Source: a virus. Taken from it: a stretch of DNA of 27,669 nucleotides. Below, in pieces: positions 4,557-12,035 of this stretch (position 1 is its first letter; each line of letters starts with the position of its first letter). A program made the position numbers and the translations under genes. The stretch lies in IMG/VR virus record IMGVR_UViG_3300020215_000124, positions 1 to 27,669 of that record. The stretch is one strand, 5' to 3'. Under the pieces are notes generated by a model. It worked only from the letters and a program-made list of their open reading frames with translations, had not been told where the DNA came from and searched no databases.

Positions 4557-5008
4557 TGGCGAACTCCGAATTGGACAAACGCCCCGCAGCCCGCTGTATC
4601 GATCACCTGTTCGAACCTGTTGTTGAATGGCTTGCCGGCGGTGTAGTGCGAGCCGTGCAGAGCTGAGCAGTAGGGCGCGACTGTCCTATCGACGCGCAGC
4701 CCCGGCGCGTAGATGAACTCCAGTACTGCTATCTCTCGTGGACCATCCAGGCCACATGACGCGTCGTGCTTTCGGTCGCACCCGCGCACGATGTCGGTGA
4801 CATCAGCGTGCATTCCGATCCGCATGATCGTGCCGCTGCCGGCGCAGCCGGTCATTCCGAAGAGCACCAGAACGCACGCGACCAGCATTAGCGCGCGCGT
4901 AGTGGCTGTCACCAGATCGATACTGCGCGCGTCGATGCGTCGCACGGCGCGCCAGAAACGGCCAGGCGTGCGCACCCGGCCCGCTACCCATTGTTGGAGC
5001 AGGATCAT
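4553..5008 (-). CDS. Predicted lipoprotein or signal-anchored protein
   Basis: A 151-residue protein with a hydrophobic stretch at about residues 40-52 ending in a lipobox-like FGMTGC. The mature part has several cysteines (GCDRKHDASC, APYCSALHG, DTAGCGAFV). The chosen ATG at 5008 overlaps the csrA stop (ATGA) and has GGGAGG about 7 bases upstream. That gives an unusually long, arginine-rich N-terminal region before the signal. An internal ATG at 4888 would give a textbook lipoprotein signal but lacks a clear ribosome binding site. The C-terminal domain is not recognised. Confidence 0.68.
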   Translation of the reverse strand: MILLQQWVAGRVRTPGRFWRAVRRIDARSIDLVTATTRALMLVACVLVLFGMTGCAGSGTIMRIGMHADVTDIVRGCDRKHDASCGLDGPREIAVLEFIYAPGLRVDRTVAPYCSALHGSHYTAGKPFNNRFEQVIDTAGCGAFVQFGVRQ

Positions 5009-5352
5009 GACTGGACCCTCCCGACCTGACGGGAGAACTGCGCGTCGCGCCGGCGGGCAGAGCTCTCGCGCTGCTCGGCCGCGATTCGAAGCGCTACCTC
5101 TTCTCGATGGATCGGGACGTCGGCTGGTGCCGCGACCCCAAGCCGGGCAACACGGCCAGACGTGCCGAGCAGCGTGACGCTGATCTCATCGCCGATATGA
5201 ACGGTCTCCTCGATCTGCAATTCATGTAGGGACCCGTCCACTTCGATGCCCGCCTGACCGTTTGCCACCACGACCGGTGTCACCTTCATCGTCGGATTGC
5301 CAACGGGCCCGATCAGGATGTTGCGTCCGACTTTCCGAGATAGGATGAGCAT
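5005..5352 (-). CDS. csrA: CsrA-like RNA-binding regulator with insertion
   Basis: A 115-residue CsrA/RsmA-type protein. It begins with the canonical first strand MLILSRKVGRNILIG (residues 1-15) and resumes the family sequence at GDEISVTLLG (54-63), LGVAAP and the RNA-binding IHREE (81-85). E. coli CsrA passes directly from IG to DEVTV. Here about 38 extra residues, including VTPVVVANGQAGIEVDG, lie between, and there is a longer basic tail after residue 90. CsrA dimers bind GGA motifs in mRNA leaders, so this could retune host or phage translation. ATG at 5352 has GAGGG upstream; the open frame to 5490 is ignored. The core motifs are clear; the effect of the insertion is unknown. Confidence 0.88.
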   Translation of the reverse strand: MLILSRKVGRNILIGPVGNPTMKVTPVVVANGQAGIEVDGSLHELQIEETVHIGDEISVTLLGTSGRVARLGVAAPADVPIHREEVALRIAAEQRESSARRRDAQFSRQVGRVQS

Positions 5353-5362
5353 CGCGGTTCCC

Positions 5363-5596
5363 TCACTTCGTTCGTTGGAAAACAGGGTGCAAAGGCCAGC
5401 CGCGCGAGCTGCGCAAGATGGCAAGGCCTTCGCCGTTGATGGTGCGGTTGAGGTATTGGCGACTGCCGAACGGCACGATCTGAAAGCCACGCGCCTGCGA
5501 TTCCTTGGCAGCGGCGTAGGGCGTGCGAGGCGCGTCGCGATCCGCCTTACCAGCGGCCAGGATCAACCCGATCGGGTAGGCGAGCCGGCGGCTCAT
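5363..5596 (-). CDS. Unknown small early phage protein
   Basis: A 77-residue basic protein beginning MSRRLAYPIGLILAAGKADR and ending WPLHPVFQRTK. The N-terminal YPIGLILAAG is mildly hydrophobic but too short for a clear membrane segment. The ATG overlaps the upstream stop (ATGA at 5593-5596). Ten bases separate its stop from the csrA start. Not recognised. Confidence 0.65.
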   Translation of the reverse strand: MSRRLAYPIGLILAAGKADRDAPRTPYAAAKESQARGFQIVPFGSRQYLNRTINGEGLAILRSSRGWPLHPVFQRTK

Positions 5597-6977: not shown

Positions 6978-7019
6978 AAAGCGCCGCTGTTGACCTTTGT
7001 AATCAGCGCCGCTTATATT
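6978..7019. promoter_or_regulatory. Right operator pair
   Basis: Two sites: AAAGCGCCGCTGTTGACC at 6978-6995 and AGCGCCGCTTATATT at 7005-7019. They match the left operator in sequence and in place: one just upstream of and touching the -35, one between -35 and -10. The left promoter read on its own strand has AAGCGGCGCTGTTGAC at the same offset. The shared architecture makes a common regulator very likely. Confidence 0.78.
6990..7018 (+). promoter_or_regulatory. Right early promoter (PR-like) for cro
   Basis: TTGACC (6990-6995) and TTATAT (7013-7018) have a 17-base spacer. The predicted transcript start is near 7025, at or next to the cro ATG (7026), so the cro message would be leaderless. 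Confidence 0.8.
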
Positions 7020-7025
7020 CGCTCC

Positions 7026-7265
7026 ATGAGCGCTATTCAGAAGGCAGTGGATATCGCGGGGAGCCAAGGAAAGCTCGCCGCCGCAGTTGGTGTTAGTCAG
7101 GGACGGGTCTCCCAATGGCTGAAGGGAGAGCCCATTCCCACAAAGCACTTCCCAGTCATCTGCAGGGCCACAAACGGCGAGGTCACAGTCGAAGCCTTGC
7201 TTGCCGAGCAGCTCTCCAGGCTCCCGATGCCTGAAGTTGCGCGCGACGGCGAGTCGATGAACTGA
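7026..7265 (+). CDS. Cro-like (YdaS-type) HTH protein
   Basis: A 79-residue protein with a typical Cro/YdaS helix-turn-helix: IQKAVDIAGSQGKLAAAVGV, then SQGRVSQWLKGEPIPTKHF and VICRATNGEVTVEALL. The family controls the lytic side of the lysis/lysogeny switch by binding the same operators as the repressor. ATG at 7026 is the only plausible start. No Shine-Dalgarno precedes it, and the promoter's -10 box ends only 7 bases upstream, pointing to leaderless translation. It is divergent from the repressor gene, the standard immunity layout. Confidence 0.88.
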   Translation: MSAIQKAVDIAGSQGKLAAAVGVSQGRVSQWLKGEPIPTKHFPVICRATNGEVTVEALLAEQLSRLPMPEVARDGESMN

Positions 7266-8850: not shown

Positions 8851-9086
8851 CCGTGCGCATCTACCTGCTGACGATCGCGTACTCTTGGGTGCTCGGCATG
8901 AGCTTCGAGTTCGCGCGCCTCAATCTTGTTGGAATGTTCTTCTGGGTGGCGGGCTTGAGCGTCTACCTGGTGTGCGTTCTGCACTGGCTGGTCCTGTTAG
9001 ATCGCCTTGACCACAGCCTGCTGCCGCGGAGCTTCGATGAGGTTCGGTTCCCATCGGTGCCGCCGCGCGAGGGTGAGCAGCCGTGA
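8847..9086 (+). CDS. Small membrane protein with two helices
   Basis: A 79-residue protein with two likely membrane helices (YLLTIAYSWVLGMSFEFA, about residues 6-23, and LVGMFFWVAGLSVYLVCVLH, about 27-46), followed by a polar C-terminal tail. The size and topology resemble small phage inner-membrane proteins, but it sits far from any lysis cassette. ATGA overlap with the preceding gene and GTGA overlap with the following one. Function unknown. Confidence 0.72.
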   Translation: MTVRIYLLTIAYSWVLGMSFEFARLNLVGMFFWVAGLSVYLVCVLHWLVLLDRLDHSLLPRSFDEVRFPSVPPREGEQP

Positions 9087-9202
9087 GCGCTTGGCTGATC
9101 CAACTCCTGCTCGTACTCGCTGCGCCGGCTATCACCGTGGCTGCGTACACGCTGCTCTCTACTGACCCGCCGCCTTCAGACAACCAGCCGGAGCAGCTGT
9201 GA
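9083..9202 (+). CDS. 39-residue single-helix membrane peptide
   Basis: A short gene easily missed because of its size. GTG at 9083 overlaps the preceding stop (GTGA) and its TGA (9200-9202) overlaps the GTG of the sigma-factor gene. The peptide starts SAWLIQLLLVLAAPAITVAA (one membrane helix) and ends in a proline-rich polar tail (STDPPPSDNQPEQL). GAGGG lies about 9 bases before the start. Translational coupling at both ends supports reality. Its position directly before the sigma gene would suit a membrane partner, but this is speculation. Confidence 0.6.
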   Translation: MSAWLIQLLLVLAAPAITVAAYTLLSTDPPPSDNQPEQL

Positions 9203-9975
9203 CCGGGCAACAGAAAAATCCGGCAGGGTCGACGCACGCCGCGTGGCGGCTGATGAACGAATCTGTATCCGTGCAGGTTTGCTCGCGTTGGCGGACAAGC
9301 TTCCGCGCATTCGTGGAGGACATGGGGCTCAAGCCACCGGGGCACGTGCTCAGCAAGATCAGTCGCTCAGGCGGATATGCGCCAGGAAACTGCATCTGGG
9401 TACGTCCTGAAAAGCCTGCACGGGGCGCTCCTCGTCGGCGAATTGAAAAAAATGCTGGCCTACTTTCGCCAGGCCACACTAACCCAGTTCGACAACTCCG
9501 AAGTTCCCCGGCAGTTCCGCGGTTTCTGCAGATCCTATTGGCTGAGCGAGATCGCCTGAAAGCGCTCGCCTACCGTTTCATCAAAGACCCCGACGCAGCG
9601 GAAGACCTTGTACAGGAAACCATCATCCGGGCATGGCACGCTCGTGAGCAGTTCGCCTCCGGGACCGGTTTGCGGGCATGGCTGAACACCATCCTGCGAA
9701 ACAAGTACTTCAGCGATCTGCGTCGCGCCAAGTTGGGCGACAAGATCTCATCTGTATTGGCCGCCGATATCGACTACGTGGAGTGCCACGGCGCCAGCGC
9801 GGTGGATGCCGAGGTACTGGCCAAGCTCTTTAGAGATCTACCCGAAGGCCAGCGCGAGGTTATCCAGGGCCTGTCCAGCGGGGAATCATACGAAGCCTGC
9901 GCCGAGCGTCTGCAGATTGCTGTCGGTACCGTGAAGTCCCGGGCTTGGCGAGCACGAGAGGCGCTGAGCAAATGA
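9199..9975 (+). CDS. ECF sigma factor fused to AP2/HNH-like module
   Basis: A 258-residue protein with two parts. Residues 12-68 match the compact AP2/HNH module of phage homing-type endonucleases: VCSRWRTSFRAFVEDMGLKP, then SGGYAPGNCIW in place of the usual DN-GNY-PENCRW. The catalytic LDRID stretch has become LSKIS, suggesting DNA binding without cutting. Residues 118-177 are sigma region 2 (AEDLVQETIIRAW, GLRAWLNTILRN) and 209-257 are region 4 (LPEGQREVIQGLSSGESYEA, VGTVKSRAWRAREAL). ECF sigma factors redirect RNA polymerase to specific promoters. The frame is continuous, with no internal ATG before region 2. GTG start overlaps the preceding stop. The EcfG-like wording of region 4 hints at an alphaproteobacterial link. 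Confidence 0.85.
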   Translation: MTGQQKNPAGSTHAAWRLMNESVSVQVCSRWRTSFRAFVEDMGLKPPGHVLSKISRSGGYAPGNCIWVRPEKPARGAPRRRIEKNAGLLSPGHTNPVRQLRSSPAVPRFLQILLAERDRLKALAYRFIKDPDAAEDLVQETIIRAWHAREQFASGTGLRAWLNTILRNKYFSDLRRAKLGDKISSVLAADIDYVECHGASAVDAEVLAKLFRDLPEGQREVIQGLSSGESYEACAERLQIAVGTVKSRAWRAREALSK

Positions 9976-10098: not shown

Positions 10099-10184
10099 CG
10101 CAGGGTGGAGGAGCGGTCAATCTCACCGGGCTCATAACCCGGAGCCGAAAGGCAACGTGGGTTCGAATCCCACCCCTGCTACCA
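10099..10184 (+). tRNA. tRNA with CAT anticodon, initiator-like, long variable arm
   Basis: A complete 86-base cloverleaf with encoded CCA. Acceptor CGCAGGG (10099-10105) pairs with CCCTGCT (10174-10180) except for a C1-U72 mismatch. D-stem GAGG/TCTC has A11-U24. Anticodon stem CCGGG/CCCGG (10126-10130, 10138-10142) encloses CTCATAA with anticodon CAT at 10133-10135. The variable region (10143-10156) is 14 bases and forms GCC-GAAA-GGC. T-arm GTGGG-TTCGAAT-CCCAC. The 1-72 mismatch, A11-U24 and three stacked G-C pairs are hallmarks of initiator tRNA, but initiators have short variable loops. An elongator Met or lysidine-type Ile tRNA is the alternative. Confidence 0.9.
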
Positions 10185-10414: not shown

Positions 10415-10915
10415 GTGAGTTCGTGGCTGCACTCGCATCGAGGCGACCGCTCGGTGCTGCCGCTGGCGGACCGGCACTACAACCGACAGAAGGTTGGCTC
10501 GCCTCAGTTCGTGCCCCCGGGCCGCTGCCTTGTTCTCAAGACTCCATGCCTACGTGCCTGCTGGGTTACCTCGTGGCCATACGCTGAGTACGTGCTGCAC
10601 CAGTGGCGCGGCGCATGGGTCAACAGCTTCTTTCGAAACGAAGGCGCTGGCTTGTCCTCGGAACTGATCCGTGCAGCTGTGGCCGAGACGGTTGCACATT
10701 GGCCACGGCCTCCAGAGCTCGGCATGGTCACCTTCGTGGACGCCTCCAAAGTGCGGCGCAAGCGTGATCCCGGTAGGTGCTATCTGCGGGCTGGTTTCAA
10801 GCACGTTGGGTTCACAAAAGCGGGGCTGCACGTGCTGCAGATGCTGCCCGATCAGATGCCCACCGCTGAGATCTATGTGACACCGCTGCAGCATCAACGG
10901 GCGCTGTTCGCATGA
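10415..10915 (+). CDS. Conserved phage protein of unknown function
   Basis: A 166-residue protein with strongly constrained-looking motifs: SVLPLADRHYNRQKVGSPQF, WVNSFFRNEGAGLSSELIR, LGMVTFVDASKVRRKRDPG and CYLRAGFKHVGFTK. I recall similar proteins in phages and actinobacteria, usually listed as hypothetical. The pattern (strand, RNEGxGLSSELI helix, GMVTFVD strand, GRCYLRAGF) resembles the core of a GNAT-type acyltransferase, which would fit a modifying enzyme. That assignment is tentative. GTG at 10415 is preferred because the motif-rich part begins right after it. It ends in an ATGA overlap with the DNA methylase. Confidence 0.75.
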   Translation: MSSWLHSHRGDRSVLPLADRHYNRQKVGSPQFVPPGRCLVLKTPCLRACWVTSWPYAEYVLHQWRGAWVNSFFRNEGAGLSSELIRAAVAETVAHWPRPPELGMVTFVDASKVRRKRDPGRCYLRAGFKHVGFTKAGLHVLQMLPDQMPTAEIYVTPLQHQRALFA

Positions 10916-11799
10916 GTGCCGCTGCCGAGATCCGCAGGCCTGCGCTTCGCTACCACGGTGGCAAGTGGCGACTCGCGCCATGGATCATCTCTCACTTCCC
11001 GTCACACCGCGTATACGTCGAGCCATACGGCGGGGCCGCGTCCGTGCTCTTGCGCAAGCCTCGAGGTAAGGCCGAGATCTACAACGATCTCGACGGCGAG
11101 GTGGTGAACCTATTCCAGGTGGTGCGCGACCGTGGCGCCGAGCTCGTCGCAGCAATCGAGCTCACGCCGTACGCTCGCGATGAGTTCTATCTGTCGTTCA
11201 TCCACAGCGACGATCCGCTCGAGCGCGCCCGGCGCCTGGTGCTTCGTTCATTTGCGGGCTATGGCGGGAACCTCACCAAGCCGAACCGCGACGGCACGCC
11301 GCAGCGAACGGGCTTCCGCACGTACTGCGGCACAGGTCGCGGCCGGAGCACCTGCGGCGACTGGCGAGCACTGCCTGCGGAGGTGCGGAAGATCATCGAG
11401 CGCATGCAGGGCGTTTGCATCGAGCACCGCGACGCGCTCCGTGTGATGCACGACCACGACTCGCCCAGCACGCTGCACTACGTGGATCCACCGTATGTGC
11501 ACGCCACGCGCGGCATGGATTCCGGCGGGTCGCACCGCGGGTATCGCTTCGAGATGACGGACGATCAGCACCGCGAGCTCGCGCACGTGCTGAGATCGCT
11601 GAAGGGCATGGTAGTACTGTCCGGCTATCAGTCCGATCTCTATACGCAGTTGTATTCAGGCTGGGTGCGGCTGGACCACCGTTCACACGCTGACGGCGCG
11701 CGGCCGCGGATCGAGTCGATTTGGCTGAATCCGGCCAGTGCTGAAGCTCGTCCGCAGCAATCGTTGTTGGATTCCATAGAGCGAGGGCAGGGCACGTGA
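10912..11799 (+). CDS. dam: DNA adenine methylase (D12 class)
   Basis: A 295-residue N6-adenine methyltransferase of the Dam/D12 class. The S-adenosylmethionine site is RYHGGKWRLAPWI (residues 13-25) with VYVEPYGGAASVL (34-46). The catalytic DPPY is at 192-195 (HYVDPPYVHATRG), and a VVLSGY strand comes later. Members transfer a methyl group to adenine in double-stranded DNA, GATC for Dam itself. In phages this protects DNA from host restriction or alters expression. No restriction partner is present, so it is an orphan enzyme. ATGA overlap joins it to the preceding gene and GTGA to the next. Confidence 0.93.
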   Translation: MSAAAEIRRPALRYHGGKWRLAPWIISHFPSHRVYVEPYGGAASVLLRKPRGKAEIYNDLDGEVVNLFQVVRDRGAELVAAIELTPYARDEFYLSFIHSDDPLERARRLVLRSFAGYGGNLTKPNRDGTPQRTGFRTYCGTGRGRSTCGDWRALPAEVRKIIERMQGVCIEHRDALRVMHDHDSPSTLHYVDPPYVHATRGMDSGGSHRGYRFEMTDDQHRELAHVLRSLKGMVVLSGYQSDLYTQLYSGWVRLDHRSHADGARPRIESIWLNPASAEARPQQSLLDSIERGQGT

Positions 11800-12035
11800 G
11801 CATCACCATGGAAGCGATCGCCACGAAAGTGCGCCGCCGCAGGCTCGGGCTGAGCGACACACAAGGCCAGCTGCTCGATCTGCTCTCACGGGGCACGCAG
11901 AACAAGCAACTCGTGCGCGAGCTCGGCGTCACGCCAGCAGCAGTGAAAGCTCGCAAGCGTGACCTGCGGCTGAAGCTAGGTGCAAAGAACGCTTTCCAGA
12001 CCGCAGTCATCGCGGCCAAGCAAGGGCTGGTATGA
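11796..12035 (+). CDS. LuxR/GerE-type HTH regulator
   Basis: A 79-residue protein made almost entirely of a LuxR/GerE-like helix-turn-helix: LSDTQGQLLDLLSRGTQNKQ, LVRELGVTPAAVKARKRDLR, then LKLGAKNAFQTAVIAAKQG. The TxxAVKxRxxxLRxKLGxxNxxxAV wording is standard for this domain. No receiver or sensor domain is attached, so it is probably a constitutive DNA-binding regulator of phage or host promoters. The GTG start overlaps the methylase stop. In this position it could time middle or late expression; the target is unknown. Confidence 0.85.
   Translation: MSITMEAIATKVRRRRLGLSDTQGQLLDLLSRGTQNKQLVRELGVTPAAVKARKRDLRLKLGAKNAFQTAVIAAKQGLV

Follow-up and report, generated by a model that had tools for sequence, protein, structure and literature searches.

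The window, that is, the whole stretch of viral DNA that was analysed (27,669 nucleotides), contains an open reading frame in which an HNH-like fragment and a linker precede an ECF sigma factor. The features of this region are listed in Table 1. The frame is open from the GTG at 9199 to the stop at 9975, and VCSRWRTSFRAFVEDMGLKP, SGGYAPGNCIW and LSKIS can be read directly in it. The overlap with the preceding short ORF and the GGAG sequence form a normal translational-coupling start arrangement at 9199. The gene belongs to an operon that runs rightward to genes for a methyltransferase, ThyX, a ParB-like protein, a helicase and a primase, and a repressor-like gene (6990-7265) precedes it; this setting would suit an early or middle regulator. 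Just 3' of the sigma gene there is a tRNA-Met (CAT) gene with encoded CCA (10099-10184, plus strand). A small LuxR-type (GerE) HTH protein with a further match to a PHROG annotated as sigma factor is encoded at 11796-12035 (plus strand) and could be a second transcription regulator; the leftward operon includes a CsrA-like regulator gene (5005-5490, minus strand; PHROG 9500, E 2e-20).

Table 1. Position and main characteristics of the features found at the locus (coordinates of the window).
Feature	Position	Strand	Characteristics
Preceding ORF	9083..9202	+	39 aa; its TGA overlaps GTG 9199 as GTGA
Shine-Dalgarno-like GGAG	9190..9193	+	5 nt 5' of GTG 9199; read from sequence
ORF with HNH-like fragment, linker and ECF sigma factor	9199..9975	+	258 aa, GTG start
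HNH-like module	9271..9429	+	Residues 25-77; homologue of PHROG 8790/3377 ('HNH endonuclease'), without the RC...YGGRG loop
HNH beta-hairpin remnant	9346..9399	+	VLSKISRSGGYAPGNCIW; consensus TLDRIDNDGNYEPxNCRW
Overlapping frame +1 ORF	9377..9559	+	60 aa, ATG start; MRQETASGYVLKSLHG...SEIA; coding-like over 9400-9511
Linker	9400..9516	+	About residues 68-106; frame 0 differs from the genes of this phage in codon usage and GC3, frame +1 coding-like
Sigma-70 region 2	9544..9732	+	Residues 116-178; Sigma70_r2, E 4e-16
Sigma-70 region 4	9817..9966	+	Residues 207-256; Sigma70_r4_2, E 5e-7

The Sigma70_r2 and Sigma70_r4_2 matches are both above the Pfam gathering score and are separated by about 28 residues. 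Regions 2 and 4 are present and region 3 is absent, which is the ECF pattern, and the TIGR02937 model (sigma70-ECF) gives 59.7 bits against a cut-off of 42.9. Judged by its sequence, the segment comprising residues 116-256 is a complete ECF-type sigma factor. The first-pass annotation had described one uninterrupted frame carrying the motifs quoted above and then sigma regions 2 and 4, and both the reading of the ORF and the Pfam matches bear this out. The best NCBIfam scores of the sigma half correspond to PRK12546/12547-type ECF sigmas, and its plasmid relatives include alphaproteobacterial ECF genes, one of them adjoining a NepR gene. Identity to plasmid and phage ECF sigmas is around 40% (40% for the viral relative L229). 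In a tree of 60 rows the window sigma is found on a long branch near the phage sigmas L182 and L008, a weak placement with unsafe support. Another viral EcfG-like sigma ORF (L181:2464-3492) is extended at its N-terminus by about 185 stop-free residues, which match nothing in Pfam, and GC by codon position gives no clear support for coding through this part.

The N-terminal part (residues 1-115), searched alone, matches PHROG HNH families over residues 25-77 with E-values from 1e-12 to 1e-8, PHROG 8790 and 3377 (annotated as restriction/HNH endonucleases) giving 1.2e-12 and 3.4e-12. This similarity is far beyond chance, and on sequence comparison the module is a true homologue of these families. 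The profile searches recover HNH PHROGs in the first half, searched separately as had been recommended earlier, and both sigma domains in the second, and the profile support sought for residues 12-68 is found at residues 25-77. The earlier name 'AP2/HNH module' is right as regards HNH (PHROG E-values down to 1e-12). However, the AP2 domain (Pfam PF00847) has no match in the window protein at E 10, and the combined label is a misnomer because in one tested relative AP2 forms a domain of its own, located after the module. No Pfam or NCBIfam model matches the N-terminal module, and sequence searches of the PDB with it found nothing. The module is detected by tblastn in hundreds of phage records, and it is present in at least 575 viral-contig stretches. 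Typical relatives are composed of a Zn-ribbon half (C.CG...SCGC) followed by SW..M..RC...YGGRGI.VC.RW..SF..FL.DMG.RP...LDRID..G.Y.P.NCRWAT..EQ..N, and many of them carry an additional DNA-binding-like stretch after the module. No empty-site relative, of the kind that bears on a homing reading, was found.

Decay of the module was scored at 20 near-invariant positions, conserved in at least 95% of 83 relatives. The window module keeps 14 of them (W16, C28, R30, W31, F35, F38, D41, M42, G43, P46, Y60, N64, C65 and W67) and has lost the other six (R22S, C23V, the deleted G of YGGRG, R53K, Q73P and N76G). These are the most losses among the 84 sequences; no other sequence has lost more than four and 66 have lost none. 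The reported replacement of LDRID by LSKIS is confirmed, the family consensus at this site being more exactly L-[DE]-R-I-[DN], with Arg in 83 of the 83 relatives and Lys in the window; D52 and D55 of LDRID are both Ser. The term 'degenerate', also used earlier, is well chosen: conserved polar residues are lost, and the RC...YGGRG stretch, Q73 and N76 are gone too. A second decayed copy of the module (L002:5981-6312) has lost four of the 20 positions, reads VLCRRD for LDRID and has no Zn ribbon.

Structure prediction gives a pLDDT of 92 for the canonical relative L110, whose best structural neighbour is PacI (HNH, PDB 3LDY; Z 5.8, rmsd 2.3, 72 residues), a middling score. The window fragment is predicted with pLDDT >90 for residues 11-70, and the model has two strands, no helix after the hairpin and a weak match to PacI (Z 3.2, rmsd 5.5). 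Foldseek against the PDB returned no significant match for either model, and a short profile match to PacI (TLDRINNELGYSPEN / GVDRSDSFEGYSPQN), which supports the L110 result, has a P of 0.0019 with a probability of only 14%. Because of the residue losses, the missing post-hairpin helix and the weak PacI match of the window fragment, the nuclease activity of the module has likely been lost.

In nearly all the sigma relatives a start codon lies 26-43 codons 5' of the D-L-V-Q motif, and all but a few have one within 60. The window sigma has only a TTG 21 codons before this motif, and the next start does not come until 85. In the 258-aa ORF the remaining in-frame ATG/GTG codons are codons 19, 25, 39, 42 and 50, no start codon is in frame at codons 51-113, and the TTG is codon 114. 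An internal start before residue 115 had been named as an observation that would speak against one product, and on this point the result is not clean: TTG 114 and the five upstream ATG/GTG codons are present, whereas codons 51-113 offer none. It could be that the sigma factor is made alone from TTG 9538 or CTG 9526, coupled to the frame +1 ORF, the module being untranslated or a separate truncated product. The presence of the TTG and a frame-switch model with confident frame-0 coding from 9526 on are consistent with this possibility. However, no Shine-Dalgarno sequence precedes either codon, and starting there would drop residues 105-113, which are conserved among the sigma relatives; internal initiation is considered quite improbable. 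Since the sigma half lacks a start where its relatives have one, translation would rather begin at GTG 9199.

The single-protein reading is not secure at the linker, because the codon signal there belongs to a different frame. Between 9400 and 9511, frame 0 scores -0.54 per codon and frame +1 scores +0.37, a difference that none of 716 windows taken from the genes of this phage reaches, and less than 0.1% of dinucleotide shuffles reach the frame +1 score in any of the three frames. The codon score of the module 5' of the linker is unremarkable and within the range of its family (0.05; relatives -0.02 to 0.47). The test of GC by position was judged insufficient by itself, since the tails of true relatives show a milder form of the same bias: in a control with 20 GC-rich true relatives these tails reach at most +0.46, compared with +0.91 in the window linker. 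Part of the linker effect, and not all of it, is therefore attributed to the Arg-rich tail of the family. A change of frame within the proposed fusion, natural or derived from the assembly, is suggested by the frame +1 signal and has to be taken seriously. The frame +1 ORF could correspond to the genuine 5' end of the sigma gene, or it could be a separate small gene. Its identification as a NepR-like gene was discarded, with no match in Pfam or phages.

Related to this, two genes and a frameshift could also produce the observed arrangement. The 5' end of the sigma gene would be in frame +1 (starting at ATG 9377 or ATG 9452), and the loss of one base or an assembly error near 9505-9525 would have joined it artificially to a separate decayed HNH gene. 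The coding-like character of frame +1 points in this direction, and ATG 9452 is located about 50 codons before D-L-V-Q, near the range of the relatives. Besides, in 36% of the shuffles frame 0 has, by chance, no stop across the linker, so that an open frame carries little weight when taken alone. Nevertheless, the frame +1 peptide has no homologue in phages or Pfam, the Arg/Pro-rich tails of true family members share the bias in the milder form described above, and the frame-0 sigma homology begins near residue 105, already inside the frame +1 ORF. An arrangement of two genes is thus regarded as a real, if less probable, alternative, and part of the HNH-sigma join may be a reading-frame error.

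The combination of both domains appears in the window and in no other of the 88 module-bearing and 69 sigma-bearing loci, so that the same domain order, which the first-pass annotation proposed to look for in other phages, was not encountered. This absence is strong for the sigma relatives and weaker for the module, since the module set is a sample. None of 50,697 phage records covers 80% of the protein, and the only close relatives of the whole protein in viral contigs are two loci with the module only. The sigma half alone has no close relatives in viral contigs and one distant genome match. The neighbouring conserved gene (10454-10915) was used for a synteny search that gave 80 loci, with the sigma factor in none of them. 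The plasmid places H102 and H104, inspected among those with >80% query coverage, are devoid of the module, the long plasmid alignments stemming from unrelated upstream sequence. In the literature searched, no paper on sigma-HNH fusions was found.

In the earlier proposal the module, though no longer catalytic, has been kept for DNA binding, adding promoter specificity to the sigma factor and tethering it to phage promoters. The pattern of retention (the hydrophobic and structural invariants W31, F35, F38, M42, G43, P46, Y60, N64, C65 and W67 are kept and polar ones are lost), the confident prediction of the module core and the extra stretch that follows the module in many relatives would fit such a role. 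However, this is a single case, with no conservation to indicate selection; the Zn ribbon and the loop are missing and the pLDDT of the linker is low. Moreover, the EcfG-type promoter GGAAC-N16/17-CGTT, which like NepR/PhyR partner genes characterises the EcfG (ECF15) general stress sigmas, is not enriched in the window, neither as exact matches (0; 0.57 expected) nor as relaxed ones (5; 6.35 expected). A targeting function of this kind is unlikely, and the same is true of the related idea that a dead HNH domain has been domesticated and fixed at the N-terminus of the ECF sigma, where it would act in DNA binding or regulation and make an extra DNA contact. The N-terminal HNH piece most likely represents the accidental remains of a selfish gene and not a proven new targeting device.

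The explanation tentatively placed first, with a probability close to one half, is that a decayed HNH gene was captured 5' of a phage sigma gene and now supplies its start, the sigma factor being functional and the relic inert. An HNH-type nuclease gene, of a kind common in phages, would once have been located directly upstream of the ECF sigma gene. It would then have decayed, with loss of the Zn ribbon, the YGGRG loop and conserved residues of the hairpin and helix, until its frame continued into a sigma gene devoid of a start codon where relatives have theirs. From GTG 9199, coupled to the preceding ORF, one protein of 258 aa would be translated, in which the sigma half could redirect the host RNA polymerase to phage promoters and the nuclease half would most likely be an inert or at most structural passenger. 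Against capture stand the frame +1 codon signal of the linker and the fact that the fusion is a single case.

A real fusion would show that a phage transcription factor can take in a decaying selfish nuclease gene, and it would give ECF sigma factors an N-terminal domain absent from every relative examined. If there is a frameshift instead, the locus is a warning against readily inferring one protein from an open frame that links two domains in a metagenomic contig, a linker of this type being open by chance in about one third of cases.

Comparison with known systems can be made at several levels. The module shares with the HNH endonucleases of PHROG 8790, 3377 and 374 the core W..SF..F..DMG..P...L......Y.P.NC.W; however, it lacks the Zn-ribbon half, the RC..YGGRG loop, the D/E-R-I-D hairpin and the helix Q..N, and it runs on into a sigma factor. 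As in other ECF sigma factors (TIGR02937; EcfG-like proteobacterial PRK12546/12547), regions 2 and 4 are complete, whereas about 105 extra N-terminal residues and the lack of a start codon at the usual place distinguish the window protein from them. The likeness to PacI (3LDY) consists of the structural match of L110 and a short motif (LDRINNELGYSPEN / VDRSDSFEGYSPQN), and the window fragment differs in lacking the D and R of this motif and in matching only at Z 3.2. The metal-binding Asp of PacI is presumably the one in VDRSD. The metal of PacI is held by an Asp and an Asn, and a tyrosine has been proposed to act as the base (PMC4081073).

The closest parallel to the proposed capture is provided by hidden HNH insertions in phage methylase genes, described for ShiLan and for gp60 of Pacc40, the latter holding a hidden out-of-frame HNH (PMC11855218). 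In Mycobacterium phage Pacc40 a tblastn match to the module (48% identity over residues 25-74) is located in gp60 (L228:1501-1647), so that a member of the module family lies out of frame inside a DNA methylase gene, in agreement with PMC11855218. The capture of a decaying HNH gene is plausible because such genes enter phage genes without stopping the host frame (PMC11855218). The likeness lies in the same module family in Pacc40 gp60 and in a host gene that stays open across the HNH element; on the other hand, in ShiLan and Pacc40 the HNH is out of frame and within the host gene, whereas the module of the window is in frame and 5' of the sigma factor.
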